DNA of 64,000 nucleotides from Clostridia bacterium (GTDB lineage Bacteria > Bacillota > Clostridia > Christensenellales > Aristaeellaceae), in assembly GCA_017512985.1 (NCBI GenBank), contig JAFWEJ010000003.1, forward strand, positions 62,001 to 126,000, given 5' to 3'. The first letter of the stretch is position 1. Each line of letters starts with the position of its first letter. Shown piece by piece: positions 42,052-63,446 of the stretch. Position numbers and translations under genes: made by a program. The notes beneath the pieces are model-generated. The model did not search any database. It was not told where the DNA came from and saw nothing but the letters and a program-made list of their open reading frames with translations.

Positions 42052-42960
42052 TTATTCCTTGACCGCGCCGATATTGATGCCTTTTACAAAGTATTTCTGC
42101 AGGAAAGGATACAGGATCATAAAAGGCAGGATTGCCGTAATAATACAGGCGTTTCGAATGGTGTTCTCCGTCGCTCCGCCGACAGATTCCGGCAGGTCGG
42201 AAGACTGCATCATGTCCCGCAGTTTCATCTGGAAATTATAGAGGTCCCTGTTGGTGATATACAGTTTGAAATTGGTGTAATCATTCCAGTAAGCCACCGC
42301 AAACATCAGACCGATGGAAGCCAGCGCCGCCTTGGACAGCGGCAGCGCGATCCGGAAGAAAGCGCCCATAGGCGTACATCCGTCCAGGTCCGCGCTTTCG
42401 AACAGGGATTTCGGAATGCCCTCAAAAAAGTTCCGCATCAGGACCAGGTTATACACATTGATAGCCGGAAGCAGGATCGGTCCCAGCGCGTTGTCTGTCA
42501 GCCCGACTGCACGCATGACCAGGTAACTGGGAATCATACCGCCTGAAAAAATCATGGTAAACAGGAGGATATTTGCCAAAGTGGTCCGGAATGGCATATC
42601 CCATTGGATCAGGACATAAGCACCCATCGTGGACAACAGCAGGCCCAGGAAGGTTCCGGTCACAGTCGTGTAGATGCTCACCCACAGCGGGCGCAGCAGG
42701 CTCTTGTTGCTGAAAATGGAAACATATCCGTCCAGGCCGAATTTCGTCGGCAGGATCTTCATACCGTAACCGGTCGTCAGGTCCAGCGAGTCGATCAGCA
42801 CCTTCCAGAGCGGAACAAGGATAATCAGGCAGACCAGGATAAAAACCAACCCGTTCACAAAGTTGAAAGGCGTATACTGGGATTTGGGTTTGTTCAGGTG
42901 TGGCGGTCCCGATACCTTCAGGCCGGCAGGAGTAATGTATTCTGCGTTCTGCTTTGCCAT
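42052..42960 (-). CDS. Carbohydrate ABC importer permease (LplC/YtcP type)
   Basis: A 302-residue inner-membrane permease with six helices and the EAA loop (ESADLDGCTPMGAFFRIALPLSK) that contacts the ATPase. The ending is the standard FVKGINIGAVKE seen in LplC/YtcP-like proteins. It pairs with the permease 19 bases upstream and the binding protein before that. No ATPase gene is present, so a shared MsmX-like ATPase elsewhere is expected. ATG 42960 follows a G-rich ribosome site. Confidence 0.92.
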   Translation of the reverse strand: MAKQNAEYITPAGLKVSGPPHLNKPKSQYTPFNFVNGLVFILVCLIILVPLWKVLIDSLDLTTGYGMKILPTKFGLDGYVSIFSNKSLLRPLWVSIYTTVTGTFLGLLLSTMGAYVLIQWDMPFRTTLANILLFTMIFSGGMIPSYLVMRAVGLTDNALGPILLPAINVYNLVLMRNFFEGIPKSLFESADLDGCTPMGAFFRIALPLSKAALASIGLMFAVAYWNDYTNFKLYITNRDLYNFQMKLRDMMQSSDLPESVGGATENTIRNACIITAILPFMILYPFLQKYFVKGINIGAVKE

Positions 42961-42979
42961 AAAGCGCTCCCCCCCTCCC

Positions 42980-43930
42980 CTACACAATCCCGCGTCCGCG
43001 AACCTTTTTGGACGCGAAATTACAGATCAGCATCAGCGCCAGGCCCACCAGGGAACGGAACAGGCCAATGGCTGTGGTATAGCCGTAGTCGGCGGAAGCG
43101 CCGGAATTGAATGTCTGATAGTATACATAAGTCTGCAGCACGTTGGTCGCCCGTTTTACACTGTCATTCTGCAGGACAAATACGCTTTCAAACAGATTCA
43201 TGATCTTTGCCAGGTTCAGGATCAGCACCGTGATGATCGTGTTTCCCAACGCAGGGAAAGTCACATACCACATCTTTTTCCAGCGCCCGGCGCCGTCGAT
43301 GGAAGCCGCTTCATAGATACCCGGATCAATACTGGTCAGTGTTGCCATGAAAATAATTGTCTGCCAGCCGGTTTCCCGCCAAACATTGATTGCATAATAC
43401 CAGACCCGCCACCAGCCTTTGTCAGCCAGATAATAAATCGGGTCTTTGATCACACCGAGCTTCAGCAGGACCTGATTGATCAGTCCGCTTCCGGACGGGG
43501 AAAGCAGCAGGCTGAATACAGAAGCTGTCACGACCCAGCTCATGAAATGAGGCAGATAAATGATAGTCTGGCTCACCTTCTTGAACTTCAGGGAAACCAT
43601 CTCGTTGAGCAGCAGGGAGATGATTACTGCCAGTCCGGTATTCAGCAGCAGCTTGACTACTGAAAACACGATCGTATTCGTAAAGGAAACGGAAAACTGG
43701 CTCTGTTTAAACAGTTTCTCGAAGTTAGCCAGTCCCACCCATGTGGGATCCCCGATAATCTTCCATGAATAAAACGCATACCGGATACCGAACATCGGGG
43801 CGTAATGGAAAACCGCCACAAACAGCAGCACCGGGATAAACATCAGATAAAATCCCCAGTACTTTTTCATCCGCTGTCCCAGCGGTTTTTTCACCACCCG
43901 CACTGTTCCGTTGGAGGTAACAGAGGCCAT
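42980..43930 (-). CDS. Carbohydrate ABC importer permease (LplB/YteP type)
   Basis: A 316-residue permease with six helices and an EAA loop reading YEAASIDGAGRWKKMWYVTFP. It belongs to the LplB/YteP class that imports complex plant oligosaccharides such as rhamnogalacturonan fragments. The start ATG 43930 has GAAAGG upstream; longer readings run into the intercistronic hairpin. It is the second gene of the importer operon. Confidence 0.92.
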   Translation of the reverse strand: MASVTSNGTVRVVKKPLGQRMKKYWGFYLMFIPVLLFVAVFHYAPMFGIRYAFYSWKIIGDPTWVGLANFEKLFKQSQFSVSFTNTIVFSVVKLLLNTGLAVIISLLLNEMVSLKFKKVSQTIIYLPHFMSWVVTASVFSLLLSPSGSGLINQVLLKLGVIKDPIYYLADKGWWRVWYYAINVWRETGWQTIIFMATLTSIDPGIYEAASIDGAGRWKKMWYVTFPALGNTIITVLILNLAKIMNLFESVFVLQNDSVKRATNVLQTYVYYQTFNSGASADYGYTTAIGLFRSLVGLALMLICNFASKKVRGRGIV

Positions 43931-43974
43931 GCGGAGCACACCTTTCTTCACTTCAGACTTGTAAAAACGATAAT

Positions 43975-44003
43975 CGGGGGCGGCGGGGTTGCCGCCGCTC
44001 CCG
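43975..44003 (-). other. Intercistronic hairpin after the binding-protein gene
   Basis: A 12-13-bp GC-rich stem with one mismatch (43975-43987 with 43991-44003) lies between the binding-protein stop and the first permease. Such hairpins usually cause partial termination or protect the upstream mRNA, giving more binding protein than permease. Confidence 0.6.
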
Positions 44004-44023
44004 AGCTGCAAATCCTTACAGGA

Positions 44024-45514
44024 TTACTTGTTCAGTGCATTCAGGCTTTCAACAATCTCGTTGGACCACTCAAGTCCGCCTTCGTTTTCAAAGCGGGCAA
44101 ATCCTTCCTCCACGGAAATGTTACCCAGCGCGATATCCGCGATGATCTCGCCCTTCAGGGTAGTCAGGTCGCCGCCCAGTTCGCTCATCGCATCCGTGGA
44201 AGGAACGATCGCCGCCAGACGGCTGTTCTCATTGAACAGCTCCGCAGCCGCCTTCGCTTCCGGTTTCACGCTGTCTTCCTTGGGATCGTAGTATCCATCC
44301 GCGAAGGAAGCCAGGCTCAGCATGGGATCGATGTGGTTCTTGGTGTACAGGGTGCCTTCCTTCTCCAGGTTCTCCCGCATATGGAACTGGCCGTCTTCAT
44401 AGGTCTGTTCCTTGTCAGTGCCCGCCAGCACGGTCTCGGCGCTCTTGGACCAGTGCACGCCTTCCACGCCGTAGGTCCACAGCATCTGGCAGTCGCCGCC
44501 GTCCAGCATGGTATCGATGAAGGCGTCAAAGACCTTCTGGGGATCCTTGCACTTGGAGGTAATCGCCCAGACCGGAGGCACGCGGTCATAATACTGCGGC
44601 AGGCCTTCCAGGGGCTTCAGCACAACCAGTTCGCCGTCCTTGCCGTTGGCTTCAAGATTGGTCTTCAGGTTGGTCGCCCAGGTGCCGGCCCAGTAGGTGA
44701 ACACGCCGAACTTGTCGTCATAGAACTTGTTGCGGGCGTCAGAGGTCTTGTTGGTCAGGGTTTCCTTGTCGATCAGGCCGTCCTTCACGGCGTCCTGGAT
44801 CCGCTGCAGTGCAGCCTTCATGTTTTCCTGGGTAAAGCCGTCCACCCAGGTGCCGTCTTCCTGCTGAATGAAGTAGGGATAGGCATCCTGATAGAACTCA
44901 GGCAGGTAGTTGACAAAGGGAGCTTCGCCGCCGACAAAACCGGCTGCAGCAACCGCATAGGTGCCGTACTTTTCGGTGAAAGCCTTCAGCATTTCGATAT
45001 AGGCTTCATAGGTTGTGGGAGCCTCGGTAATGCCGCACGCATCCATCCAGGCTTTCTTCACATAGGTCACGCAGCCGTTGCCGCGATAGGGAGCAAAGCC
45101 GTAGAGTTTTCCGTCGATTTTCAGGCCGTCAATCACAGAATCGCCGTAGAAGCGGCCGCTGTTCTTGGTCTGGCTGTTCTCCCAGGCCTCGGTCATGTCC
45201 CACAGGAAGCCTGCGGCAGCGTATTCCGCATAATAGGTGGCGGACAGAATCAGGACGTCCGGGAACTCGCCGGAAGCGATCTGCTTCTGCATGTTGTTGT
45301 AGTATTCGCTGTGGTCCGGCTGATTGATCACCAAATCGAATCCGGGATTCAGTTCTTCCCAGCGGGCTTCGAACGCGTCGCGTCCGTTGTTCTGATCGAC
45401 GACGGTGGTATCGACCATCATTACGATCTTGATGGGCTCTTCCGCGGAAGCGGAAACAACTGCCATGCTCATGCACAGGGCAAGGGCAAGCATCAGGGCT
45501 ACCAGTTTCTTCAT
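44024..45514 (-). CDS. Extracellular sugar-binding protein (LplA-like)
   Basis: A 496-residue solute-binding protein that should capture pectic oligosaccharides for the two permeases. The signal peptide is MKKLVALMLALALCMSMAVV followed by SASA-EE; the Cys14 context LALC is not a proper lipobox, so signal peptidase I cleavage is likely and the anchoring is unclear. The size fits the LplA/YtcQ class. The start ATG 45514 has AAAGGAG. A good promoter and a 17-base motif shared with other pectin operons lie upstream. Confidence 0.9.
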   Translation of the reverse strand: MKKLVALMLALALCMSMAVVSASAEEPIKIVMMVDTTVVDQNNGRDAFEARWEELNPGFDLVINQPDHSEYYNNMQKQIASGEFPDVLILSATYYAEYAAAGFLWDMTEAWENSQTKNSGRFYGDSVIDGLKIDGKLYGFAPYRGNGCVTYVKKAWMDACGITEAPTTYEAYIEMLKAFTEKYGTYAVAAAGFVGGEAPFVNYLPEFYQDAYPYFIQQEDGTWVDGFTQENMKAALQRIQDAVKDGLIDKETLTNKTSDARNKFYDDKFGVFTYWAGTWATNLKTNLEANGKDGELVVLKPLEGLPQYYDRVPPVWAITSKCKDPQKVFDAFIDTMLDGGDCQMLWTYGVEGVHWSKSAETVLAGTDKEQTYEDGQFHMRENLEKEGTLYTKNHIDPMLSLASFADGYYDPKEDSVKPEAKAAAELFNENSRLAAIVPSTDAMSELGGDLTTLKGEIIADIALGNISVEEGFARFENEGGLEWSNEIVESLNALNK

Positions 45515-45579: not shown

Positions 45580-45608
45580 ATTATACATGAGTTGTCCGGG
45601 TTAGTAAA
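45580..45608 (-). promoter_or_regulatory. Promoter of the pectic importer operon
   Basis: On the minus strand TTTACT (45603-45608), a 17-base spacer and TATAAT (45580-45585). A GTTGTCCGG word lies inside the spacer. The shared 17-base motif starts 19 bases upstream of the -35. Confidence 0.75.
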
Positions 45609-45627: not shown

Positions 45628-45644
45628 TATGGACAAAACGGATA
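45628..45644 (+). promoter_or_regulatory. Shared 17-base motif, site 1
   Basis: TATGGACAAAACGGATA lies 20 bases after the kduD stop and just upstream of the importer promoter, the position of an activator site. Identical copies are at 49200-49216 (other strand) and 56522-56538. Confidence 0.7.
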
Positions 45645-45664
45645 TTCGTTAGTGTCTCGTTCGT

Positions 45665-46462
45665 TTACGGCTGTTTCCCGATATAGGCAAGAATACCGCC
45701 GTCCACATAGAGGATATGGCCGTTCACAAAATTGCTGGCGTCGGATGCCAGGAACACTGCGGGGCCCTGCAGGTCCTCCGGTGTTCCCCAGCGGGCTGCC
45801 GGAGTCTTGGCGATAATGAACTGGTCAAAGGGATGGCGGCTGCCGTCCGGCTGTTTTTCCCTCAGCGGCGCGGTCTGTGGCGTGGCGATATAGCCCGGCC
45901 CGATGCCGTTGCACTGAATGTTGTGCCCGCCGTATTCAGAGCAGATGTTCCGGGTCAGCATCTTCAGGCCGCCCTTGGCCGCCGCGTAGGCGGAGACCGT
46001 TTCCCGTCCGAGTTCGCTCATCATGCTGCAGATGTTGATGATCTTGCCGTGTCCCTTTTCGATCATCGAAGGAATGACCGCCTTGGCGCAGATGAACGGC
46101 GCGTTCAGATCCACGTCGATCACCTTCCGGAATTCCGCGGCGCTCATTTCGGTCATCGGGATCCGGCGGATGATGCCGGCATTGTTGACCAGGATGTCGA
46201 TCACGCCGACCTCCTGCTCAATCTGCTTCACCAGCGCCTGGACCGCGTCCTCGTCCGTCACGTCGCAGACATAGCCCTTTGCGTCGATGCCTTTTTCCGC
46301 GTAGGCTTTCAGACCCCTGTCCACAAGTTCCCGATTGATGTCGTTGAATACGATCACCGCGCCGGCGGCCGCGTACGCCTCCGCGATCGCGAAACCGATC
46401 CCGTAGCTCGCGCCGGTAATCCAGGCAACCTTGCCCTTCAGGCTGAAATCGTTCATATTCAT
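45665..46462 (-). CDS. kduD: 2-dehydro-3-deoxy-D-gluconate 5-dehydrogenase (SDR)
   Basis: A 265-residue short-chain dehydrogenase. The cofactor loop is TGASYGIG (16-23), NNAG is near 92, and the catalytic Ser-Tyr-Lys set reads S...YAAAKGG near 160. With KduI next door it most likely reduces 2,5-diketo-3-deoxygluconate to KDG. A gluconate 5-dehydrogenase would look the same from sequence alone. A GGGAGG site supports ATG 46462; another ATG lies two codons in. Between it and kduI sits a remnant of another kduI copy. Confidence 0.85.
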   Translation of the reverse strand: MNMNDFSLKGKVAWITGASYGIGFAIAEAYAAAGAVIVFNDINRELVDRGLKAYAEKGIDAKGYVCDVTDEDAVQALVKQIEQEVGVIDILVNNAGIIRRIPMTEMSAAEFRKVIDVDLNAPFICAKAVIPSMIEKGHGKIINICSMMSELGRETVSAYAAAKGGLKMLTRNICSEYGGHNIQCNGIGPGYIATPQTAPLREKQPDGSRHPFDQFIIAKTPAARWGTPEDLQGPAVFLASDASNFVNGHILYVDGGILAYIGKQP

Positions 46463-46491
46463 CTCTGTTTCCTCCCATTCTCCGGTTAAAC

Positions 46492-46514
46492 ATTCATTAT
46501 GAATTGTGAATTAT
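46492..46514. repeat. AT-rich heptad repeat, third site
   Basis: ATTCATTATGAATTGTGAATTAT contains partial copies of the heptad words seen at 11988 and 33948. It abuts and overlaps the stop codon of the kduI remnant. Confidence 0.5.
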
Positions 46515-46590
46515 CTGAGTTCTGTGGTGGGTATATTGTCCATATCATCAAAAGCCTGGTCCTTCCCGTTCATACCCCCATGATGCCGAA
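46511..46590 (-). pseudogene. 3' remnant of a second kduI gene
   Basis: The minus-strand frame from 46573 to the stop at 46511 reads MNGKDQAFDDMDNIPTTELR. The intact KduI next door ends MGGENQAFDDMDNIKTTDLR: 15 of 20 residues match, with an ungapped DNA match including 19 identical bases. Upstream the similarity fades with a length change that breaks the frame, near a GC stem-loop. This is the tail of a diverged kduI copy left after deletion or recombination. It is too short to function. Confidence 0.75.
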
Positions 46591-46622
46591 GGGGTTTAAG
46601 GGGGCGATCGGAAAGCCCCCTT
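46583..46622. repeat. Stem-loop element after kduI
   Basis: TAAGGGGGC and GCCCCCTTA pair around GATCGGAAA (46595-46622), ending at the kduI stop codon. The CTTTCCGATCG core on the minus strand and the following AAACCCCTTCGG match the gyrB-gyrA element at 27959-28000. It has no T-run. Confidence 0.5.
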
Positions 46623-47463
46623 ATCTCAGGTCAGTGGTTTTGATGTTATCCATATCATCAAAAGCCTGATTCTCCCCGCCCATCGCCCAGATGAACGTAT
46701 AATTGCTTGTTCCCGCTCCGGCGTGAATCGACCAGGAAGGCGAAATCACCGCCTGCTCGTTCTGCATCACAATATGCCGGGTCTCCTGCCCTTCGCCCAT
46801 CATATGGAAGACCACGTTATCCTGCGGCACTTCAAAGTAGAAGTATACTTCCATCCGCCGCTCGTGCGTATGCGCCGGCATTGTGTTCCATACGCTGCCG
46901 GTCTCCAGTACGGTCATGCCCATGCTCAGCTGGCAGGTTTTCAGCACCGAAGGGTGGATAAACTGGTTGATAACCCGTTTGTTGCTGGTCGCCGCGTCGC
47001 CGCAGGGTTTCTTGGCGGCGTCCGCGATCCGGATCAGCCGGTTCTCATAGCTGCAGTGGGCTGGCGCGGAAACCAGGTAGAACTTCGCGGGCTTTGCCGC
47101 GTCCGCGCTCTCGAAATACACTTGCTTTGCGCCGCGGGTCAGGTACAGGCAATCCTTGTAATCCAGCTCGTACACACTGCCGTCTGCGGTGACCCGCCCG
47201 GCCCCGCCAACATTGAACATGCCGCATTCGCGGCGTTCAAGGAAATACTCCGTACCGAAGTTGTGCCAGATGTCAATCCCCTTGTCGATGGAGACCTTTT
47301 CCTTCACCGGCATCACGCCGAGGGTTACCATTCTGTCCACATGGCTGTAGACCGCGGTCACCTGGTCCGCTTCAAACAGCTTTTCGATCAGGAATTCCTT
47401 CCGTACTTCCTCGGTGGTGTACCGCCTGAAATCCTTCTGGTTGCAGCTGTACCGAATGTCCAT
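46621..47463 (-). CDS. kduI: 5-dehydro-4-deoxy-D-glucuronate isomerase
   Basis: A 280-residue double-cupin isomerase that converts 5-keto-4-deoxyuronate, released by GH105 and lyases, to 2,5-diketo-3-deoxygluconate for KduD. The zinc-site motif THERRMEVYFYFE lies near residues 195-208 and a further His is in WSIHAGAGT. Length and ending are typical. The ATG at 47463 has AAGGAAG; the upstream extension has no ribosome site. It follows the GH28 gene by 19 bases. Confidence 0.95.
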   Translation of the reverse strand: MDIRYSCNQKDFRRYTTEEVRKEFLIEKLFEADQVTAVYSHVDRMVTLGVMPVKEKVSIDKGIDIWHNFGTEYFLERRECGMFNVGGAGRVTADGSVYELDYKDCLYLTRGAKQVYFESADAAKPAKFYLVSAPAHCSYENRLIRIADAAKKPCGDAATSNKRVINQFIHPSVLKTCQLSMGMTVLETGSVWNTMPAHTHERRMEVYFYFEVPQDNVVFHMMGEGQETRHIVMQNEQAVISPSWSIHAGAGTSNYTFIWAMGGENQAFDDMDNIKTTDLR

Positions 47464-47482
47464 ATGTCTTCCTTCTTTCCTT

Positions 47483-49033
47483 TTATTGCTCTGTGATTTC
47501 CCAGACGTCTTCCGTCTCAAGCCGCTCTCCTTCGAAACCTTCCAGGAACACATTTTCCATGGTCAGTTTCTTCAGGAACCGGACAATGATCCCCCGCCTG
47601 CAGCATTCCTCGACATGCAGTGCCATGGCAGGCACCATCGGCTGTGCCTCCGGATCAAAGCTGAAAAAGCAGTTTCTCAGTTCCAGATGCTCCATCGGCT
47701 TCTCCGGCAATCCCATTGCGTAAACTGCGCAGGCCTTGCATCCGTCCGCTTTCACCCGTTCAAAGCAGACAGTCCGGATCTCCGGCGTGGTCTCGTCCAC
47801 CGGCTGCTTTTCCCGGCTCTGCACCCGTTCCGTTTTCCCGTCCGCGTCGCAGAAATAGAAGCTGTTGATGACCAGCGGCATCTTGACCCCGTCCATCCGG
47901 ATATCCCGGAACAGGATCCCGTCAATCACCCCGTCCTTCCCGCGGTCACGCCTGGTTTTGATCCGGAGTGCCCGGTCGTTTCCCTTCATATAGCAGTGAT
48001 GCGCCAACACCTTTTTCACCCCGCCGGCCATCTCGCTGCCCACGGTCACGCCGCCGTGCCCGTCCAGCAGAGCGCACCAGCCGATCTCCAGGTCTTCACA
48101 GGGCCGCCTGTATTTCCGGCCCAGGCCGATCTTTCCGCTCTTGATGGCAATGCAGTCGTCCCCGACGGAAATTTCCGTGCCAAGCAGGCGCACCTTCCGG
48201 CAGCTTTCCGGATCAAACCCGTCGGTGTTCGGGCTGTCCCAGGGCGCCTTCACCCTGATGTCGATAAAGTCCAGTTCCTCGCTGAATGCCGGATGGAGGT
48301 TCCAGCTGGGGCTGTTCCGGAAGGTCAGTCCCTGAACCAGCATCCCTTTGCAGCGCTGGGTATACAGCAGGTTGCCCCGGCTGGCGATCCGGGTTTCCTT
48401 CGGTCTCACCCACCAGTCGCCTTCATCGGCCCGGCCGTCGATCACGCCTTCTCCGATGATCGCCACTTCCGTCACGCCGATGCCGTTCAGCGCCGCCGCG
48501 AATCCGTCTGTGGCGCAGCCCTCAAACAGGCCGAGCAGGATCTCCCCGTCCGGGTTGTCCGCGGGCGTATCTCCCGGGAGTACCGGAAACCTTTCCCGGT
48601 CTGTCAGGAGCTTCAGCACCGCGCCGCCCGCAATCTCGAGCGTCAGGCGGCTTTTCAGGAACAGCGGCCCCGTCACATATTCTCCCGGAGGGACTAACAC
48701 CCTGCCGCCTTCCGGACAGCAGAGGATCGCCGCCTGGAGGAACGCGGTATCCTCTGTCTGCCCGTCTCCCTTCGCGCCAAAGTCCTTCACGTTCAGGGAG
48801 CAAGTCTCTTTTGCGGTCCGGAAAGACAGTGTTTCCCTGGCCCCGCCGTCCGTCACGCTTTCCAGCACATAGTCCGTATCCGGTTCCAGGTCGAACAGGG
48901 AAGACACCGAGCGGTATTCCTCACCCAGGCGCTCCCCGTCCAGGAAGAGTTCCCGCTTTTCCCGGGCCTCATACAAGCCCTCCGGATCCAGCAGCACGCT
49001 GCAGCTGCGGGATGTAACGCACAGTATTTTCAT
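47483..49033 (-). CDS. GH28 polygalacturonase with N-terminal FnIII-like domain, leaderless
   Basis: A 516-residue protein. Residues 1-75 resemble a fibronectin III-like domain. The GH28 beta helix starts near 80 (VKDFGAKGDGQTEDT). The catalytic motifs are all present: N269-T-D271, G291-D-D293, G325-H-G327 and R357-I-K359. Without a signal peptide it probably works as an exo-polygalacturonase on imported oligomers. Start ATG 49033 follows GGAGAACC. It leads the GH28-kduI-kduD run and is preceded by a promoter, a perfect TTGTCC/GGACAA dyad and the shared 17-base motif. Confidence 0.92.
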   Translation of the reverse strand: MKILCVTSRSCSVLLDPEGLYEAREKRELFLDGERLGEEYRSVSSLFDLEPDTDYVLESVTDGGARETLSFRTAKETCSLNVKDFGAKGDGQTEDTAFLQAAILCCPEGGRVLVPPGEYVTGPLFLKSRLTLEIAGGAVLKLLTDRERFPVLPGDTPADNPDGEILLGLFEGCATDGFAAALNGIGVTEVAIIGEGVIDGRADEGDWWVRPKETRIASRGNLLYTQRCKGMLVQGLTFRNSPSWNLHPAFSEELDFIDIRVKAPWDSPNTDGFDPESCRKVRLLGTEISVGDDCIAIKSGKIGLGRKYRRPCEDLEIGWCALLDGHGGVTVGSEMAGGVKKVLAHHCYMKGNDRALRIKTRRDRGKDGVIDGILFRDIRMDGVKMPLVINSFYFCDADGKTERVQSREKQPVDETTPEIRTVCFERVKADGCKACAVYAMGLPEKPMEHLELRNCFFSFDPEAQPMVPAMALHVEECCRRGIIVRFLKKLTMENVFLEGFEGERLETEDVWEITEQ

Positions 49034-49060
49034 CACGGTTCTCCGGTAATCCTTCCTCAG

Positions 49061-49072
49061 TTGTCCGGACAA
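49061..49072. promoter_or_regulatory. Perfect 12-base dyad before GH28
   Basis: TTGTCCGGACAA is a perfect palindrome in the GH28 leader, downstream of the promoter; TTGTACA stands 11 bases further up. Related TTGTCCG words occur in the importer promoter (45592) and before uxaC (51559), so it may be an operator. Confidence 0.5.
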
Positions 49073-49132
49073 TTTTGCCGAATTGTACAGGCTGTATTTT
49101 GCTTCGTTTCTCTGTCATTTCTTTCCGTCTGC

Positions 49133-49162
49133 AGTATATATGAAAAGCCGGACAGGATTCAA
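49133..49162 (-). promoter_or_regulatory. Promoter of GH28-kduI-kduD
   Basis: On the minus strand TTGAAT (49157-49162), an 18-base spacer and TATACT (49133-49138), 100 bases before the GH28 start. Confidence 0.6.
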
Positions 49163-49199
49163 GGCTTTCCGGCCATTCTCTCCGTATCCGGCTGTATCG

Positions 49200-49216
49200 T
49201 ATCCGTTTTGTCCATA
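49200..49216 (-). promoter_or_regulatory. Shared 17-base motif, site 2
   Basis: The minus strand reads TATGGACAAAACGGATA, 37 bases upstream of the GH28 promoter and 4 bases after the stop of the TIM-barrel gene. The orientation relative to the target gene is opposite to sites 1 and 3. Confidence 0.7.
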
Positions 49217-49220
49217 TCGC

Positions 49221-50048
49221 TCAGGCCTGGCTTTCCAACCAGGTCCGGGTCTGTTCCGCGTTTTCCGGCGTTGTGTTTTCCAGGGTCATCGGCAGGTTCC
49301 TTTCCCGCGCCAGTTTCAGCAGGGATCCGTACCGCATCTGCCCCTGCCCGCAGGGGACCGGCCTGGGTCTCGGCGTATCCGGCTGCGGGATGAAATCCTT
49401 CATATGCAGCACGCAGACCCGGTCTCCCAGCCTGCCGGTCGCCTCCCGGATCAGGCAGTCCGCCTCCCCGGTATGCTCCGAGTCGATCAGGTTCACCGCG
49501 TCCAGGATGATCCTTACCCGGTCGCTCTTCAGGTCCTCCAGCATCCGTTCCGCCAGGGCTGCGTCATGGATAATATGGCTGCATACCGGCTCGATCGCCA
49601 GCGTCACGCCCAGTTCCTCCGCCGCTCGGACCACCGGCCTGACCCTGTCCAGGAACAGCCTGTAGTATTCCTCCGTCCGGCAGGCCTTTCCTTCAGGACC
49701 GTCCGCAGGCGGGGTTTCCGTGCCTACGCACCGGGCACCGATCATCGCGGCAAACCGCAGGTGTGCCAGATAGATTTCCCGGATCCGGACTGCCTCCTCC
49801 CCGTTCCGGTCAGCCAGTTTCAGATAGCAGCCAAGAACAGCACACTCTATCTTTGCCCGGTCCAGCTCCCGCTTCACTTCCGCCGCCAGTTCATCCGTCA
49901 GCAGTTTCGGCGCGTCAGCCATCCCGAAGCCCGGCACCGCTTTGCTCATCGCCAGCTGCACGCAGCTGAATCCCTGCGCCGCGGCATACCCCAGTCTTTC
50001 CCGCAGCGTTCCCGGCAGGGTATCGTGAAGCCTGATTCCGATGTTCAT
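49221..50048 (-). CDS. Sugar phosphate isomerase/epimerase-type TIM barrel
   Basis: A 275-residue xylose isomerase-like TIM barrel. Likely metal ligands: Glu in AIEPVCSH, Asp in IILDAVN, His in VLHMKDF and Glu near the end (TLENT). It is unlike the barrel at 1.1 kb in detail. Placed between uxaC and GH28 it probably acts on a uronate or deoxysugar, for instance as an epimerase, but the substrate is not known. AGGAGGAGGAG marks ATG 50048; the frame above has no ribosome site. A terminator separates it from uxaC. Confidence 0.78.
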   Translation of the reverse strand: MNIGIRLHDTLPGTLRERLGYAAAQGFSCVQLAMSKAVPGFGMADAPKLLTDELAAEVKRELDRAKIECAVLGCYLKLADRNGEEAVRIREIYLAHLRFAAMIGARCVGTETPPADGPEGKACRTEEYYRLFLDRVRPVVRAAEELGVTLAIEPVCSHIIHDAALAERMLEDLKSDRVRIILDAVNLIDSEHTGEADCLIREATGRLGDRVCVLHMKDFIPQPDTPRPRPVPCGQGQMRYGSLLKLARERNLPMTLENTTPENAEQTRTWLESQA

Positions 50049-50076
50049 CCGTCTCCTCCTCCTGAAACCGGAAGGC

Positions 50077-50103
50077 AAAAGGCGCCGGTTTCCCCGGCGC
50101 CTT
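50077..50103 (-). terminator. Terminator of the uxaB-to-uxaC operon
   Basis: A 10-bp stem AAGGCGCCGG/CCGGCGCCTT (50079-50088, 50094-50103) with TTTT on the minus side lies 14 bases after the uxaC stop. Confidence 0.7.
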
Positions 50104-50117
50104 CTGCGGCTCCGGAA

Positions 50118-51533
50118 TCAGATCTTCTTGCTTTCGAAGCCGAAATACTTTTTCGCGTTGTTGTAGCTGATGTCCGCCACGATCTCCTTCAGGGTGCCAA
50201 AGTCTTCCGGATAGAAGCCTTCCTCCACCCATTCGCCGAGGATCCGGCAGAGGATGCGGCGGAAATACTCATGGCGCGGATAGCTCAGGAAGCTCCGGCT
50301 GTCCGTCAGCATTCCAACAAAGCCGGCCAGGTATCCCAGGGAGGCCAGGCTCTTCAGCTGTTCGCTCATTCCGTCAAAGTGATCGTTGAACCACCAGGCG
50401 GAACCATGCTGGATCCGTCCGACGGCTTCGTCGTTCTGGAAGCAGCCGAGGATCGTATCGATCGCCGCGTTGTCGTTGGTGTTCAGGCTGTACAGGATCG
50501 TCTTCGGCAGGCTGCCGGCATCCTCCAGCGCGCCGAGGAACGCGGCTGTCTGGGCGCTGGGCGCATAGTTGTCCACGCAGTCGAATCCGGTATCCGGCCC
50601 CATTTTGCGGAACGTGACCGGGTTGTTGTCCCGGCGGCAGCCGTAATGCAGTTGCATCACCCAGTTCCTTTCCTTATATTCCGCGGCCATCGCCGTCATG
50701 AAAGCGTATTTGAACTTCGCCTCGTCCTCCGCGCCAGGTACGGTCCCGGCCAGCCGCGCGCTGAAGATCTTCTCAACTTCCCCGTCCGCCGCCGGCGCGT
50801 AAACGACGTAATTCAGCGCGTGATCGCTCAGTTTGCATCCGCGGGCGGCAAAGAAGTCCAGCCGATTATGCAGTGCTTCCTTCAGGTCCGCGAAAGAGGC
50901 GATCTTCATCCCGGCCGCCGTTTCCAGCCGGGCGAGGTATTCCGGATAATCCGCCTTTTCCAGGTTCATGGCCTTGTCCGGACGCCAGGCCGGCAGCACC
51001 GTCACCGGGAAGGTTTTGTCCGCCGCCAGTTTTTCGTGCCATTCCAGCGTGTCCGCCGGATCGTCCGTGGTACAGATCGTATCCACATTGCTCATCATGA
51101 TCAGGCCGCGGGCGGAATACCCCTCTCCCTGCAGCTTCGCGTTGGCAGCCTCCCATACTTCTTTTGCTGTCTGCCTGTTCAGGATGCCCTCATAGCCGAA
51201 GAACCGGCGCAGCTCCAGGTGGCTCCAGTGGTACAGGGGATTGCCGATGGCCCTGCCCAGCACCTCGGCGTATTTTTCAAACTTCTCCCAGTCATCCGCG
51301 TCGCCGGTGATGTACTTTTCCGGCACGCCCGCGGACCGCATCAGCCGCCACTTGTAATGATCCCCGCCGAGCCAGACCCGGGTAATATTGTCATACCGGA
51401 CGTCTTCATAGATCTCCCGGGGGCTCAGGTGGCAGTGATAGTCAATGATCGGCTGCTTTTCCGCCGCCTCGTGGAAAAGCTTCTTTGCTGCTTCTGTATT
51501 TAACAGGAAGTCCTTGTCCAGAAACTGTTTCAT
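50118..51533 (-). CDS. uxaC: Glucuronate/galacturonate isomerase
   Basis: A 471-residue UxaC of the amidohydrolase-like fold that converts D-galacturonate to D-tagaturonate (and D-glucuronate to D-fructuronate). YHCHLSP near residue 33 and later HYGCRRDNN are the family motifs. It opens the saturated uronate branch, whose next steps are the UxaB and UxaA proteins encoded upstream in the same strand run. It follows kdgK by 49 bases, a gap holding a variant of the shared motif. Confidence 0.95.
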   Translation of the reverse strand: MKQFLDKDFLLNTEAAKKLFHEAAEKQPIIDYHCHLSPREIYEDVRYDNITRVWLGGDHYKWRLMRSAGVPEKYITGDADDWEKFEKYAEVLGRAIGNPLYHWSHLELRRFFGYEGILNRQTAKEVWEAANAKLQGEGYSARGLIMMSNVDTICTTDDPADTLEWHEKLAADKTFPVTVLPAWRPDKAMNLEKADYPEYLARLETAAGMKIASFADLKEALHNRLDFFAARGCKLSDHALNYVVYAPAADGEVEKIFSARLAGTVPGAEDEAKFKYAFMTAMAAEYKERNWVMQLHYGCRRDNNPVTFRKMGPDTGFDCVDNYAPSAQTAAFLGALEDAGSLPKTILYSLNTNDNAAIDTILGCFQNDEAVGRIQHGSAWWFNDHFDGMSEQLKSLASLGYLAGFVGMLTDSRSFLSYPRHEYFRRILCRILGEWVEEGFYPEDFGTLKEIVADISYNNAKKYFGFESKKI

Positions 51534-51558
51534 AATCGTTCCCCTTCACATGATCACA

Positions 51559-51575
51559 TTGTCCGTTTTGTACAA
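51559..51575 (-). promoter_or_regulatory. Variant of the shared motif before uxaC
   Basis: TTGTCCGTTTTGTACAA keeps the CCGTTTTGT core of the 17-base motif (minus-strand TATCCGTTTTGTCCATA) but has TTGT/ACAA flanks, and is itself partly symmetric. It lies in the kdgK-uxaC gap. Confidence 0.45.
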
Positions 51576-51582
51576 CGGTGAA

Positions 51583-52680
51583 TTATCTCTTCACCCTGGC
51601 GCTGCCGTTCTTCATAATGGATTCCACTTCTTCCCGGCTGGCCATGCTGGTGTCGCCGGGCGTGGTCATCGCCAGCGCGCCGTGGGCAGCGCCGTAATTC
51701 ACCGCCAGTTCCGGATCGCTGGTGGTCATCAGGCCGTAGATCAGGCCTGAGGCAAAGGAATCCCCGCCGCCGACGCGGTCCAGGATTTCCAGGTTGTCGT
51801 AGGCCTTGGACATATACACCTGTCCGTCCGCCCAGCAGATCGCTTTCCAGTCGTTCACCGTCGCCGTTTTGACGGTGCGCAGCGTGGTGGCGATCGCCTT
51901 GAAGTTGGGATACTGCCTGGCCGCTTCCGCAATCATCTTGTAATACCCGTCCAGGTTCAGTTCCTTCAGGTTTTCATCGTTGCCTTCCACCTGCAGGCCC
52001 AGGCACGCGGTAAAATCTTCCTCGTTGCCGATCATCACGTCCACATACTTTGCAACTTCCCGGTTGACTTCACGGGCTTTTTCCAGGCCGCCGATCGCCG
52101 ACCACATGGAAGGGCGGTAATTCAGGTCGTAGGAGATTATTGTGCCGTATTGCTTCGCGGTTTTGCAGGCGGCGATGACCGTCTCGCAGCTCTGTTCCGA
52201 CAGTGCCGCATAGATTCCGCCCGTATGCAGCCACCGGACGCCGAGCTTTCCGAATACATAGTCAAAATCAAAGTCGTCGGGAGTCGCCTTGGAGATGGCG
52301 GTATTGGCGCGGTCCGAACATCCCACGGCGCCCCGGATTCCGAATCCGCGCTCCGTGAAATTCAGGCCGTTCCGGCAGACGCGGCCGATGCCGTCCGTCT
52401 TTTTCCAGCAGATCAGGTCCGTATCCACGCCGCCCTGCTCGATCAGGTCCTTCAGCAGCCTGCCGACTTCGTTGTCAGCAAACGCGGTCAGCACGCCGGT
52501 CTTCAGGCCGAAACACTTGTGCAGGCCCCGGACCACATTGTATTCGCCGCCCCCTTCCCAGGCTTTGAATTCCCGTGCGGTACGAATCCGGCCCTCACCG
52601 GGATCCAGGCGCAGCATGATCTCTCCCAGGGATACCGCGTCATAGCGGCATTCTTCCGCAGGTCTCAGATTCAGATTCAT
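51583..52680 (-). CDS. kdgK: 2-keto-3-deoxygluconate kinase
   Basis: A 365-residue PfkB-family sugar kinase that phosphorylates KDG to KDPG. The N-terminal GGGEYNV substrate loop, the DLNYRPSMW segment and the catalytic GGGDSFASG near the C-terminus are clear. Both the UxaA and the KduD branches end in its substrate. It is six bases after eda, and the two form the lower Entner-Doudoroff steps. A 2-keto-gluconate kinase is the main alternative, but the operon argues for KDG. Confidence 0.93.
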   Translation of the reverse strand: MNLNLRPAEECRYDAVSLGEIMLRLDPGEGRIRTAREFKAWEGGGEYNVVRGLHKCFGLKTGVLTAFADNEVGRLLKDLIEQGGVDTDLICWKKTDGIGRVCRNGLNFTERGFGIRGAVGCSDRANTAISKATPDDFDFDYVFGKLGVRWLHTGGIYAALSEQSCETVIAACKTAKQYGTIISYDLNYRPSMWSAIGGLEKAREVNREVAKYVDVMIGNEEDFTACLGLQVEGNDENLKELNLDGYYKMIAEAARQYPNFKAIATTLRTVKTATVNDWKAICWADGQVYMSKAYDNLEILDRVGGGDSFASGLIYGLMTTSDPELAVNYGAAHGALAMTTPGDTSMASREEVESIMKNGSARVKR

Positions 52681-52686
52681 TTTTCC

Positions 52687-53325
52687 TTACCCCCTGATCT
52701 CTTTCACAATGTCCGCGGCTTCCCGCACCAGTTTTTCAATCTCGTCAAACTTGCCTTCCTTCACGAGCTTGCCGCTGACCATCCAGCTGCCGCCGCAGGC
52801 CACGATCCGGTCGTAGGCCAGGTAATCCCGCACGTTCGCCGCGCTGATCCCGCCGGTGGGCATGAAGTTCAGGCCGACATAGGGCGCTGCCAGCGCTTTG
52901 ATCATCTTCAGGCCGCCCGCCGGCTCCGCCGGGAAGAACTTCAGCACGTCCAGGTCAAACTGAAGCGCCGCCTCAATCTCCGTCGGCGTACAGACGCCGG
53001 GCGTCATCGGAACTCCCTTTTTCAGCACGTACTCCGTAACCTTCGGGTTGAATCCCGGGCTGACGATGAACGCCGCACCGGCGTCAATCGCGCGGTCCGC
53101 CTGCTCCGTGGTCAGCACGGTGCCCGCGCCGATGATCATCTCCGGAAAAGCCTTTGCCATCCGGCGGATGGATTCCTCCGCCGCGGCCGTGCGGAAGGTA
53201 ACTTCCGCGCAAGGCAGGCCGCCCGCCATCAGTCGTTCCGCCAGCGGCAGCGCGTCGTCCGCGTTCTCCAGGACGACCACCGGTACGATCCCGGTCTTCT
53301 GCAGTTTCTTCATCATCTCAGTCAT
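52687..53325 (-). CDS. eda: KDPG aldolase
   Basis: A 212-residue class I aldolase that splits KDPG to pyruvate and glyceraldehyde 3-phosphate. The catalytic Glu is in AEVTFRT, the Schiff-base Lys in DVLKFFPAE, and TPGVCTPTE binds the phosphate. GGGGAGG supports ATG 53325. It lies between uxaA and kdgK. A heptad repeat block fills the gap to uxaA. Confidence 0.95.
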   Translation of the reverse strand: MTEMMKKLQKTGIVPVVVLENADDALPLAERLMAGGLPCAEVTFRTAAAEESIRRMAKAFPEMIIGAGTVLTTEQADRAIDAGAAFIVSPGFNPKVTEYVLKKGVPMTPGVCTPTEIEAALQFDLDVLKFFPAEPAGGLKMIKALAAPYVGLNFMPTGGISAANVRDYLAYDRIVACGGSWMVSGKLVKEGKFDEIEKLVREAADIVKEIRG

Positions 53326-53345
53326 AATATCGTCTTCCTCCCCGT

Positions 53346-53387
53346 CATTCTTCATTATATATTATTCATTGTTCATTATTCATTACA
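53346..53387. repeat. Heptad repeat block, uxaA-eda gap
   Basis: About 40 bases of TTCATTA/TTCATTG-type heptads. The 24 bases at 53361-53384 are identical to stretches at 62042-62065 and 63418-63441. The block touches the uxaA stop codon. Confidence 0.85.
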
Positions 53388-54864
53388 ATGTGACTCCCTG
53401 CTTAAAGATCGCCAGGTCGTGGAAACCGTTTGCCTCGCTTCTGGTTTTCTCTCCGGAAGCGATCCGCAGCACCGTCCGCAGCAGGTCCTCTCCCAGTTCC
53501 TCCAGCGTCATGCCGTCCAGCAGGCGTCCCGCGTCAAAATCGATCCAGTTCCGCTTCTTCTGCGCCAGCGGGGTATTGGAAGCGATCTTCACCGTCGGTA
53601 CCGGGCAGCCGAAGGGCGTTCCCCGGCCGGTGGAGAAAAGGACCATCTGCGCGCCGGACACCGCCAGCGCCGTGGAAGCCACCAGGTCGTTTCCCGGCGC
53701 GGACAGCAGGTTCAGCCCGGCCGTCTCCGCCCGTTCCCCGTAGGCCAGCACGCCCGTTACCGGAGAGCTGCCGCTTTTCTGGGTGCAGCCCAGCGCCTTG
53801 TCCTCCAGCGTTGTGATGCCGCCCGCTTTGTTCCCGGGCGACGGATTCTCATAAACCGGCATATGGTAACTTTCGAAATAAGCCTTGAAATCGTTGATCA
53901 GGCTGACCGTCTTCCGGAACAGTTCCCCGTCCCCGCACCGGTCCATCAGGATCGTTTCCGCCCCGAACATCTCCGGCACTTCCGTCAGGATCGTGGTGCC
54001 GCCCATCGCCGTCAGCAGGTCGCTGAACACGCCGATGGCCGGATTGGCCGTGATACCGGAAAGACCGTCCGAGCCGCCGCACTTCAGGCCCACCGTCAGC
54101 CGGTCCGCCGTGCAGGACACCCGTTCGTCCTGCCGCATCCGCGCAGCAAGTTCCTCCAGCAGCTTCATGCCCGCTTCCTGCTCGTCCCCGCAGTCCTGGC
54201 AGACCAGGAAACGGACCCGGCTCTCATCATATTCCTTCATGTAGGGCCTGATCTGTTCGATTCCGCTGTTTTCGCATCCCAGACCCAGCAGCAATACCCC
54301 GCCGGCGTTCGGATGCGTCGCCAGCGCCGCCAGGACCCTGCGGGTATTGTCCTGGTCGTCGCCCAGCTGGCTGCAGCCGTAGGGATGCGGAAACGCGTAT
54401 ACGCCTTCCACCGCGCCGCCGGCAAGTTTCTGCGCTTCCCGGGCCAGCGCCTTCGCGACGTCGTTCACGCAGCCCACCGTCGGCAGGATCCACAGTTCGT
54501 TCCGGATGCCCGGTTTTCCATATTTCCGGGCGTATCCCCGGAAAACGGCCGGCTCTTTCCGGACCTGTTCCGGAAAGATCGGATGCCATTCATATTCCTT
54601 TTCGCCGGACAGCAGCGTATGCAGGTTGTGGGTATGCACATGCGCCCCGGCGGGAATGTCTTCCGTCGCTTCCCCGATCGGATAGCCGTATTTGATCACC
54701 GGTTCACCTTTGCGGATGTCCCGCAGCGCCGCCTTGTGGCCCATGGGAAGGTCTTCCTTCAGGGTGATCTCCCCGGCGCCGAAGGATACCGTTTCTCCGG
54801 CTTTCAGCGGTTTCAGCGCCACCGCCACCATATCCCGCGCGGTAATGCGCACCATCTCGTTCAT
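53383..54864 (-). CDS. uxaA: Altronate dehydratase
   Basis: A 493-residue UxaA that dehydrates D-altronate to KDG with Fe or Mn. The N-terminal SAF domain (about 1-90, ending GAHVHTHN) is joined to the large catalytic domain with the conserved HPYGCSQ, GCENSG, KCGGSDG and SGQ-like motifs. ATG 54864 has GGAGGAC upstream. It is 13 bases after uxaB. Its stop codon lies at the edge of a heptad repeat block. Confidence 0.95.
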   Translation of the reverse strand: MNEMVRITARDMVAVALKPLKAGETVSFGAGEITLKEDLPMGHKAALRDIRKGEPVIKYGYPIGEATEDIPAGAHVHTHNLHTLLSGEKEYEWHPIFPEQVRKEPAVFRGYARKYGKPGIRNELWILPTVGCVNDVAKALAREAQKLAGGAVEGVYAFPHPYGCSQLGDDQDNTRRVLAALATHPNAGGVLLLGLGCENSGIEQIRPYMKEYDESRVRFLVCQDCGDEQEAGMKLLEELAARMRQDERVSCTADRLTVGLKCGGSDGLSGITANPAIGVFSDLLTAMGGTTILTEVPEMFGAETILMDRCGDGELFRKTVSLINDFKAYFESYHMPVYENPSPGNKAGGITTLEDKALGCTQKSGSSPVTGVLAYGERAETAGLNLLSAPGNDLVASTALAVSGAQMVLFSTGRGTPFGCPVPTVKIASNTPLAQKKRNWIDFDAGRLLDGMTLEELGEDLLRTVLRIASGEKTRSEANGFHDLAIFKQGVTL

Positions 54865-54877
54865 GCGTCGTCCTCCG

Positions 54878-56368
54878 TCAGGCAAGGCAGGCTTTGTAAG
54901 CCGCCAGGGCGCCTTCCGCGCGGATCTGCTTCAGGATCCGGACGACCGCTGCCTCAAAGCCGGCCACCTCCGTCAGGTCCTGTCCCCACATTTCCGTGTT
55001 GGTCATCACGGCATGCACCAGCTCCTCCGGGCTGTCGCCGCGGTGATCCCGGTAGAACTCCAGCACATACCGGTCGTCGCTGACCGTATATTCGTTCCCC
55101 TTCGGCCGGCGGCAGACAAGGCCTTTCTCCGTCAGTTCCTGAACGTCATTGGAATAGAAAGCGATATAGGCCGCGAAGCTCGTGGTCAGGCAGGCGGGCA
55201 GTTCCCCCTTTTCCTTTACATAGTCCAGGAAGGTCGGCATGTTCCTGGCCCGCCATTTGCTCGTGGAGTTCAGGCTGATGCTCATCAGTTCATGGTTCAC
55301 AAAGGGATTGTTGAACCGGTCCTGCACCGCCCGGGCAAAATCTTCCAGGTCTTTTTTGTCCAGCGGCAGCGTCGGGATCACTTCGTCGTAAAGCATTTTA
55401 TTCATATAGCCCAGGACCGTTTCGTCGTGCATGCAGTCCCGCACGATGTCGTACCCGGCCAGGTAGGCGCCCAGCACAAAGCCTGTATGCGCGCCGTTCA
55501 GGATGCGGACCTTCCGTTTTTTATATGGGGTGACATCCGGTACCACAATCACCGGCACGCCCGCTTTTTTGAAAGGAAGGCGGTCCTCCAGGCCGTCCGG
55601 TCCCTCAATGACCCAGATGCCGAACACTTCGCCCACATCCGTCAGCGGATCCTCATATCTGTTGGCCGCGGCCAGCGCCTCAACCTCTTGCGGATCCCGG
55701 ATCCGTCCGGGAACGATCCGGTCCACCAGGGTGGAGCAGAAGATATTCTCCTCATTCACCCAGCGGCGGAATGCTTCACTCAGTTTCCAGTCGTCAATAT
55801 ACCGGTTCACGCACTTCAGCAGTTCTTTTCCGTTGTTGTCGATCAGCTCGCAGCTGAGCATCACGATCCCCGGCAGTCCGGCGGTAAACCGTTCAAACAG
55901 CACCCGCGTCAGTTTCGCCGGGAAACTGACCGGCGGCACCTGGTCAAAGGCGCTCTCCGTATCATGCACAATACCGGCCTCTGTAGTATTGGACACGATA
56001 ATCTCAAGGTCCCTGCTCCGGGCCAGTTCCAGCACCTTGTCCCAGTCCTCGTAAGGATTCACGCAGCGGCTGACCGCGGAAATCACCCGTTTGTCGTCCA
56101 CGCGGACGCCGTTTTCGCTCCCCCGCAGATACAGGGTATACAGGCCTTCCTGTTTGTTGATCAGCTCCGTCAGGCCCTGGGCAATGGGCTGAACCAGCAC
56201 CACCTTGCCGTTGAACCCGGCTTTTTCGTTTGCGATATCAAAAAAATCGTCCACGAAGGCGCGCAGAAAGTTGCCTTCCCCGAACTGCATGACCTTTTCC
56301 GGCGCCTTTTCCAGGATGTACCCGTCATATCCGGACTGTTTCAGAACCTGATAATTCAGCTGTGCCAT
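54878..56368 (-). CDS. uxaB: Tagaturonate reductase
   Basis: A 496-residue long-chain polyol dehydrogenase that reduces D-tagaturonate to D-altronate with NADH. The N-terminal cofactor motif reads QFGEGNFLRAF (28-38). The mannitol dehydrogenase-type C-terminal domain carries K..R.LNG-like KRKVRILNGAHT. Fructuronate reductase (UxuB) is the close alternative, but neighbour uxaA favours UxaB. It is the first gene of uxaB-uxaA-eda-kdgK-uxaC; the 207-base upstream gap holds the shared 17-base motif. Confidence 0.93.
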   Translation of the reverse strand: MAQLNYQVLKQSGYDGYILEKAPEKVMQFGEGNFLRAFVDDFFDIANEKAGFNGKVVLVQPIAQGLTELINKQEGLYTLYLRGSENGVRVDDKRVISAVSRCVNPYEDWDKVLELARSRDLEIIVSNTTEAGIVHDTESAFDQVPPVSFPAKLTRVLFERFTAGLPGIVMLSCELIDNNGKELLKCVNRYIDDWKLSEAFRRWVNEENIFCSTLVDRIVPGRIRDPQEVEALAAANRYEDPLTDVGEVFGIWVIEGPDGLEDRLPFKKAGVPVIVVPDVTPYKKRKVRILNGAHTGFVLGAYLAGYDIVRDCMHDETVLGYMNKMLYDEVIPTLPLDKKDLEDFARAVQDRFNNPFVNHELMSISLNSTSKWRARNMPTFLDYVKEKGELPACLTTSFAAYIAFYSNDVQELTEKGLVCRRPKGNEYTVSDDRYVLEFYRDHRGDSPEELVHAVMTNTEMWGQDLTEVAGFEAAVVRILKQIRAEGALAAYKACLA

Positions 56369-56468
56369 CTTTCTGTCCTCCGATATGGATTTTATATATC
56401 AAAAATACACCCGGGTTTCATTTTTCGTCAAGGCGTCCGAAATCCCACAATCCCCTGTCAAAAAAGCG

Positions 56469-56497
56469 TTTTTAGACCTCTCAGCAAGGAAAATCAA
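56469..56497 (-). promoter_or_regulatory. Possible promoter of the uxa operon
   Basis: On the minus strand TTGATT (56492-56497), a 17-base spacer and TAAAAA (56469-56474) lie 24 bases downstream of motif site 3. A rival is TTGACG with TATTTT nearer to uxaB (about 56405-56435). Confidence 0.35.
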
Positions 56498-56521
56498 GGC
56501 TTGGGAAACATCCGTACATCT

Positions 56522-56538
56522 TATGGACAAAACGGATA
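56522..56538 (+). promoter_or_regulatory. Shared 17-base motif, site 3
   Basis: TATGGACAAAACGGATA, identical to sites 1 and 2, lies in the gap upstream of uxaB and 37 bases after the stop of the deacetylase gene. Confidence 0.7.
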
Positions 56539-62032: not shown

Positions 62033-62068
62033 TTCATTATTCATTATTCATTGTTCATTATTCATTTC
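62033..62068. repeat. Heptad repeat block, ppx-sufC gap
   Basis: Four to five heptads of TCATTAT/TCATTGT type fill the gap between the ppx stop and the sufC ribosome site. It shares 24 identical bases with the blocks at 53346 and 63413. Confidence 0.85.
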
Positions 62069-63331: not shown

Positions 63332-63412
63332 GCCTGTCTTCCCTCCTTCCCCGTTTCCTTATACATTTCGATCTCTCTTTTGTCGAATCCTTCCCTTAGT
63401 TACCGGTCCCGT

Positions 63413-63446
63413 CATTATTCATTATTCATTGTTCATTATTCATTGT
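63413..63446. repeat. Heptad repeat block after polC
   Basis: A run of TCATTAT/TCATTGT heptads starts at the polC stop codon. Its core at 63418-63441 is identical to those at 53361 and 62042. Confidence 0.85.

Follow-up and report, generated by a model that had tools for sequence, protein, structure and literature searches.

Three intergenic regions of a pectin/galacturonate island in a clostridial genome carry an identical 17-bp sequence, and the question raised by this locus is which protein acts at that sequence and in which direction. The window analysed here is the whole stretch of 64,000 nt taken from contig JAFWEJ010000003.1 (assembly GCA_017512985.1) of a Clostridia bacterium of the Aristaeellaceae. 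Comparison of sequences makes it likely that the 17-mer is the operator of an AraC/XylS-family activator of pectin and galacturonate use, which is encoded at 33991-34785 of the same window (araC below). Computation established where the sites lie, how far they are conserved, that they co-occur with araC and how they are placed relative to promoters. An AraC-type switch is a known kind of control. No earlier description of its site was found in a search of the literature outside subscription papers, in which the core strings gave unrelated titles only. The host is akin to uncultured gut and rumen Clostridia, the regulons of which are, to our knowledge, little studied, and the result is a predicted regulator-operator pair for pectin/galacturonate use in these bacteria.

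In the proposed mechanism, the operator would consist of two boxes, A (TATCCG) and B (TCCATA), separated by a TTTTG centre. The AraC protein would sense a pectin-derived uronate, probably via its cupin domain, and would bind upstream of three operons, namely those for pectin-oligosaccharide import, GH28-kduI-kduD and uxaB-uxaA-eda-kdgK-uxaC. Activation would proceed by contact with RNA polymerase, in the case of site 1 at a distance of 19 bp above the -35 element. In distant relatives, where the site appears to contain the -35 of araC itself, binding would repress the regulator.

The 17-mer in the window and in the genus

The 17-mer TATGGACAAAACGGATA (TATCCGTTTTGTCCATA on the other strand) has three mismatch-free copies in the window. 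In the orientation of TATGGACAAAACGGATA, these lie at 45628-45644 (+), 49200-49216 (-) and 56522-56538 (+), and are referred to as sites 1, 2 and 3, respectively. No other 17-mer occurs three times in the window, except within a low-complexity micro-repeat. No further match with up to three mismatches was found in the window (0.04 expected from shuffles), and no exact copy beyond the three was found in the 2.63-Mb genome of the organism (17 contigs, about 90% complete). The scan of this genome, suggested as a check in the original prediction, gave no excess of unlinked near-copies, with eight further three-mismatch matches compared with seven for the reversed control. The gene calls of that prediction agree with the family searches, which identified an extracellular solute-binding protein (SBP) with two permeases, GH28, KduI, a short-chain dehydrogenase, UxaB, a UxaA-like protein, Eda, a PfkB kinase and UxaC, together with pectin methylesterase (PME), GH43, GH88 and the AraC-family gene. 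The three exact copies that it reported stand, whereas the variant that it placed before uxaC (51559-51575, minus strand) was rejected as a fourth site. The variant is absent from the aligned kdgK-uxaC spacers of eight relatives, and copies of its 9-base core are found at six places in the window, namely at the three sites, at the variant itself and at two other positions; it is therefore regarded as a chance match.

The 17-mer was found with at most one mismatch in nine of 45 genomes of the genus (this one included), and its reversed control in none. Twelve of the 13 motif places in the genus, three of which are those of the window, adjoin uxaB, SBP or GH28 genes. Upstream of uxaB, a site with at most two mismatches lies within 400 nt in 10 of 81 loci (the window and 80 others), always in one orientation and at 169-172 nt from the uxaB start, except in locus L069 (128 nt). 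These ten promoters and that of genome G002 (L125), all chosen for holding the motif, were aligned; TCCGTTTTGTCCATA is invariant among the 11, and 15 of the 17 site bases are conserved while the flanks are mostly variable. A TCCG repeat is located exactly 21 bp upstream in eight of the 11, and two further downstream blocks are kept in most. Repeats of TCCG at 21 bp also occur in the four alignable of five GH28 promoters; none was seen in the alignment of the SBP promoter. Site 1, aligned with three other genomes, is kept in G038 (L022/L127), reads TATCCGAAATATCCATA in G036 (L024/L129, one stretch) and is absent in L075. Site 2 is kept with small changes in three of four other genomes (L022, L024 and L035), the fourth (L034) being not alignable. 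The site thus recurs before orthologous operons in relatives, as expected of the pathway-specific operator first proposed, and orthologous promoters keep it in 10 of the 15 genus genomes that contain araC. The G036 variant, found in that one genome, retains both outer boxes with an altered centre, which suggests two outer boxes and a free centre as in a two-helix AraC-type site.

The AraC-family gene and promoter geometry

The protein encoded at 33991 contains a C-terminal domain with two helix-turn-helix motifs (PF12833, 3.2e-17; PF00165, two stretches) and an N-terminal cupin-like domain of the sugar subgroup (PF02311, 3.3e-10; PF07883, 1.5e-8). Orthologs are present in 15 of the 45 genus genomes, and eight of the nine motif-bearing genomes are among these 15 (Fisher p=2e-4). 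In all eight, araC and the motif share a contig, the nearest listed site being about 6-23 kb away from the gene. A two-mismatch site also precedes uxaB in two more araC-containing genomes (G042 and G004), which brings the total to ten. A second test covered 50 of the 65 genomes first listed from 80 uxaB loci, 20 of which encode an AraC homolog. The motif (at most two mismatches) was present in the fetched uxaB locus of 11 of these 20 genomes and in none of the 30 without AraC (p=4.5e-6), the 50 having been selected so that the motif-bearing loci other than L096 were covered, and the loci being of different lengths. It stands directly before uxaB in nine of the 20 (0/30 without AraC) and elsewhere in the locus in L056 and L101. 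The excluded L096 itself encodes AraC. Both tests are inflated by the relatedness of the genomes. Homologs at E 1e-30 were found in 64 of 396 genomes of the order, four of them in the genus. A class-wide search at E 1e-40 (391 genomes) gave one homolog besides that of this genome, in G784, where a TIM-barrel homolog is preceded by a promoter with a four-mismatch motif 19 bp above it.

Upstream regions of 250 nt were scanned before araC in 26 loci, the best-scoring order homologs outside the genus, with a matrix derived solely from target sites of the genus, araC promoters being left out. The matrix score exceeded those of all 60 mononucleotide shuffles in 20 of the 26. In 24 of the 26, a hexamer matching TATAAT in at least four of six letters lies 17 bp after the T(A/G)GACA of the site (complementary strand); spacers of 16-18 bp were tried, exactly 17 bp was best, and the reading carries no shuffle control. 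The 24 loci come from six families and are non-independent, ten belonging to family f5 and seven to f19. From this arrangement, the operator probably covers the putative -35 of araC, binding there should repress the regulator, and araC is probably self-repressed in the distant relatives. The neighbours of the site in other families include GH88, GH28, PME, Eda, KdgK and KduI genes, e.g., GH88, GH28, PME and UxaC near araC in L217, GH88 and GH28 in L225 and L230, and Eda, KdgK and UxaC in L233 and L235. Oscillospiraceae and Pseudoflavonifractor loci contain sites with 1-3 mismatches beside AraC and KduI. The guess of the original prediction that the AraC protein at 33991 is the regulator gains support from the co-occurrence and from these distant promoters. 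In the genus itself, L116 has a degenerate site before araC with a -35/-10 arrangement. Two full tandem sites 28 bp apart directly precede araC in two f19 loci (L217:4750-4794 and L225:10669-10713), with GH88-GH28 beyond araC.

The position of the site relative to target promoters was scored in 31 non-uxaB instances picked by hand, with 200 shuffles as the null. The best -35 lies 18-21 nt from the site in 16 of the 31 (null mean 3.0, maximum 8). It starts 19 nt after the site in the window importer (TTTACT-17-TATAAT), in L151 and L274 (TTGATT-17-TATAAT) and in L101 (TGGGCT-17-TATAAT), and 20 nt after it on the eda side in most f5 loci (TTGTTT-17-TATAAT). L096 has TGGGAT-17-TATAAT at 19 nt by eye, the script having chosen another pair. 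The 19-base distance between site 1 and a good promoter was thus correctly predicted, and the activator-type geometry recurs at target promoters of several families. Site 1 and the distant targets (19-20 nt) have the site immediately upstream of the -35, as would be expected for AraC-type class II activation; sites 2 and 3 do not. Class I activators of the MarA type are known to act from distal sites in backward orientation.

The same protein might bind the site and mainly repress these operons. The site covers the putative -35 of the distant araC promoters, which is a repressor position, and at uxaB and GH28 it is not adjacent to the best core promoter. This explanation is unlikely, since at the importer and at distant promoters of good consensus (eda, kduI and TIM-barrel) the site lies 19-20 bp upstream of the -35, and in Caldicellulosiruptor AraC-family sugar regulators whose sites are located upstream were inferred to act as activators (PMC8579813).

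Rival regulators and motif copies in other families

Regulators of the LacI, GntR and IclR types control uronate pathways elsewhere, and the 17-mer might be the site of such a protein (e.g., KdgR, ExuR or UxuR) with araC merely one of its targets. The site in the distant araC promoters would also fit this, as would its absence from most araC promoters of the genus. The operators of GntR, LacI and IclR proteins are usually palindromic, whereas the 17-mer is not, agreeing with its own reverse complement only at the outer three positions on each side. Among the island proteins that were scanned, there was no further DNA-binding regulator and no protein of the GntR or IclR type. The motif is also missing from the fetched uxaB loci of all 30 genomes without AraC, and the uxaB promoter of AraC-negative relatives often contains TGTTGTATAC-type sites instead. 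Such GTATAC elements, many of TGTTGTATAC form, are present within 250 nt before uxaB in 17 of the 81 loci, none of which is among the ten loci with the 17-mer; of the 12 examined for AraC, ten are AraC-negative and two have only weak AraC homologs. Control of the 17-mer by another uronate regulator is accordingly judged quite improbable.

A divergent GntR-FCD gene adjoins uxaB in the AraC-negative loci L060 and L067; none was found in three other loci (10 proteins from the five loci examined). Paired TGTTGTATACAACA-like sites were observed upstream of uxaB in AraC-negative L026, L054, L060, L066, L067, L072 and L092. These sites and the GntR-FCD gene are candidates for another regulator at the orthologous operon, judging from sequence comparison. 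They point to an exchange of one type of regulator for another (AraC versus GntR-FCD) at a single orthologous operon of closely related bacteria.

Many motif copies were observed in family f5. The 11 genomes searched from its genus g84 contain 6-16 copies of the near-identical 14-mer CYRTTTTGTCCATA per genome, compared with about 0.1 expected from an order-2 model. Thirty copies were examined in two genomes (G342 and G395; loci L187-L216). Eleven lie inside open reading frames of 100 aa or more, and only two, the araC/eda copies, show the activator geometry with a promoter score of at least 7.5. Neighbours of the f5 copies include genes for RNase J, MutS, PolI and FAD synthetase. In family f13, genome G085 has two motif copies 126 bp apart inside a longer repeat (L231:5939-6081), with no island gene matched nearby.

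The g84 copies would fit a motif that is a chance match, a selfish repeat or part of a core promoter, read on the opposite strand as a -35 (TGGACA), and TGGACA is a fair -35 that is seemingly so used in the distant araC promoters. This explanation is very improbable. The genome of the organism holds three copies only, and before uxaB the site is conserved against its variable flanks. By eye, a -10 at 17 bp on the TGGACA strand is lacking at all three sites of the window, and the core-promoter explanation was rejected for them.

Several observations weigh against the AraC protein as activator at the 17-mer. Fifteen of the 31 instances lack the promoter geometry, eight of the 16 positive instances are from f5 relatives, and the L131 promoter is poor. 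Site 2 is reversed and site 3 is located about 90 bp above its best promoter, so that the geometry of site 1 does not account for them. The araC promoter is without a convincing motif in 14 of 15 genus members, including the window, and only that of L103 beats all shuffles. Five AraC-encoding genus genomes (G003, G006, G016, G020 and G022) showed no clear motif in the scanned stretches, and G019, which lacks AraC, has a single one-mismatch match away from uronate genes with no island gene matched. The free centre is seen in one genome (G036), and among 17 araC sites at order level it is box A that varies, the central TTT being invariant. A bipartite pattern with one mismatch gave 35 matches in the genome of the organism and 10 for the reversed control. 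Order-wide co-occurrence (44/64 genomes with AraC and 74/332 without) was rejected as proof because f5 has many copies beside unrelated genes.

A wider statement joining these observations is tentative and on balance doubtful. An AraC-type clade across several clostridial families, of which no account was found, would use one site both ways, activating uronate genes from 19-20 bp above the -35, with the complementary strand serving as the -35 of the regulator itself. The uxaB operon of the genus and its near kin would have been switched between this activator and GntR-FCD. The near-identical sequence of one other family, which has multiplied beside housekeeping genes to about 100-fold of the expected number, would perhaps reflect a wider role of the same protein.

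Operons of the window and comparison with known systems

The sites, promoters and genes of the window are listed in Table 1. The importer operon SBP-permease-permease probably continues into the MATE and GH88 genes. A TCTCCG repeat lies 21 bp from site 2. The palindrome TTGTCCGGACAA is conserved with small changes in L022, L024 and L035 and is possibly a second operator, a candidate site for a second regulator. An intergenic micro-repeat resembling AATGAACAATGAATAATGAA was observed in three places (53361-53384, 62034-62066 and 63412-63444).

Table 1. Positions of the predicted regulator, its candidate sites and the associated genes in the window
Feature	Position	Strand	Remarks
AraC/XylS-family regulator, proposed binding protein	33991..34785	+	cupin-like sensor domain, two helix-turn-helix motifs; family search
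GH88-family hydrolase	39438..40589	-	family search; probably on importer transcript, from spacing
MATE-family transporter	40606..41985	-	family search; probably on importer transcript, from spacing
ABC permease 2	42052..42987	-	family search
ABC permease 1	42980..44011	-	family search
SBP_bac_1 extracellular solute-binding protein of ABC importer	44024..45514	-	family search
Importer promoter -10 TATAAT	45580..45585	-	17-bp spacer; predicted from consensus match
Importer promoter -35 TTTACT	45603..45608	-	19 nt downstream of site 1; predicted from consensus match
Operator site 1	45628..45644	-	TATCCGTTTTGTCCATA on - strand, upstream of importer operon; exact match
Short-chain dehydrogenase/reductase (SDR), kduD-like	45665..46462	-	short-chain dehydrogenase match; kduD name from context
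kduI	46621..47553	-	family search
GH28 polygalacturonase-family gene	47483..49072	-	family search; likely ATG at 49034
Palindrome TTGTCCGGACAA	49061..49072	.	between GH28 promoter and gene
Putative GH28 promoter TTGAAT-18-TATACT	49133..49162	-	37 bp from site 2; predicted from sequence, alignment block
Operator site 2	49200..49216	+	reversed relative to GH28-kduI-kduD operon; exact match
Xylose-isomerase-like TIM-barrel protein	49221..50078	-	family search; after uxaB-uxaA-eda-kdgK-uxaC
uxaC	50118..51533	-	family search
kdgK sugar kinase, PfkB type	51583..52680	-	below curated cut-offs; KDG kinase from context
eda KDPG aldolase	52687..53355	-	family search
uxaA altronate dehydratase-like	53383..54885	-	galactarate dehydratase family, below curated cut-off; name from context
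uxaB tagaturonate reductase	54878..56368	-	family search
Putative uxaB promoter TTGACG-16-TGTATT	56404..56431	-	predicted; conserved in alignment of 11 promoters
Conserved block TTGATTTTCCTTGC	56484..56497	-	downstream of site 3; possible -35 or second box
Operator site 3	56522..56538	-	TATCCGTTTTGTCCATA on - strand, 170 nt before uxaB; TCTCCG repeat 21 bp upstream

ExuR and UxuR, regulators of the GntR family, control hexuronate metabolism. The GntR-FCD genes and GTATAC sites at the orthologous operon of AraC-negative relatives resemble this system, which differs from the pair proposed here in its protein family and palindromic site; such sites do not occur together with the 17-mer before uxaB.

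Three AraC-family regulators of pectin genes (PecR, PecR2 and HemR) have been predicted in Caldicellulosiruptor, where AraC-family sites are located upstream of promoters, repeats at 21 or 32 bp were sought, and UxaR (DeoR) and KdgR (IclR) are named for the catabolic genes (PMC8579813). Both systems involve predicted local AraC-family control of pectin degradation and oligosaccharide import, and TCCG repeats at 21 bp were observed here. The window differs in genus and in the inclusion of the core galacturonate catabolic operon.

The system differs from AraC of E. coli in its pathway (pectin/galacturonate), in the first recognition helix and in box A, which is TATCCG and not TAGC. No DNA-looping site was identified here, and the regulator is located about 11 kb from the nearest target site in the window. 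A search of solved structures with the AraC protein matched only stretches of the DNA-binding domain. The second recognition helix is DPLYFSKMFKK in the protein at 33991 and DQLYFSRVFKK in E. coli AraC by alignment. The second helix-turn-helix is conserved across the AraC family generally, and the match is therefore merely consistent with the proposed pair. The divergent layout of araC and its target in E. coli is found here in distant relatives. In public E. coli genomes, TAGCATTTTTATCCATA lies 17 nt above what we take to be the araBAD -35, compared with 19 here. The 17-bp araI1 half-site likewise ends in TCCATA and faces the promoter, which suggests that the box B specificity (TCCATA) may be common to this regulator and E. 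coli AraC across phyla.

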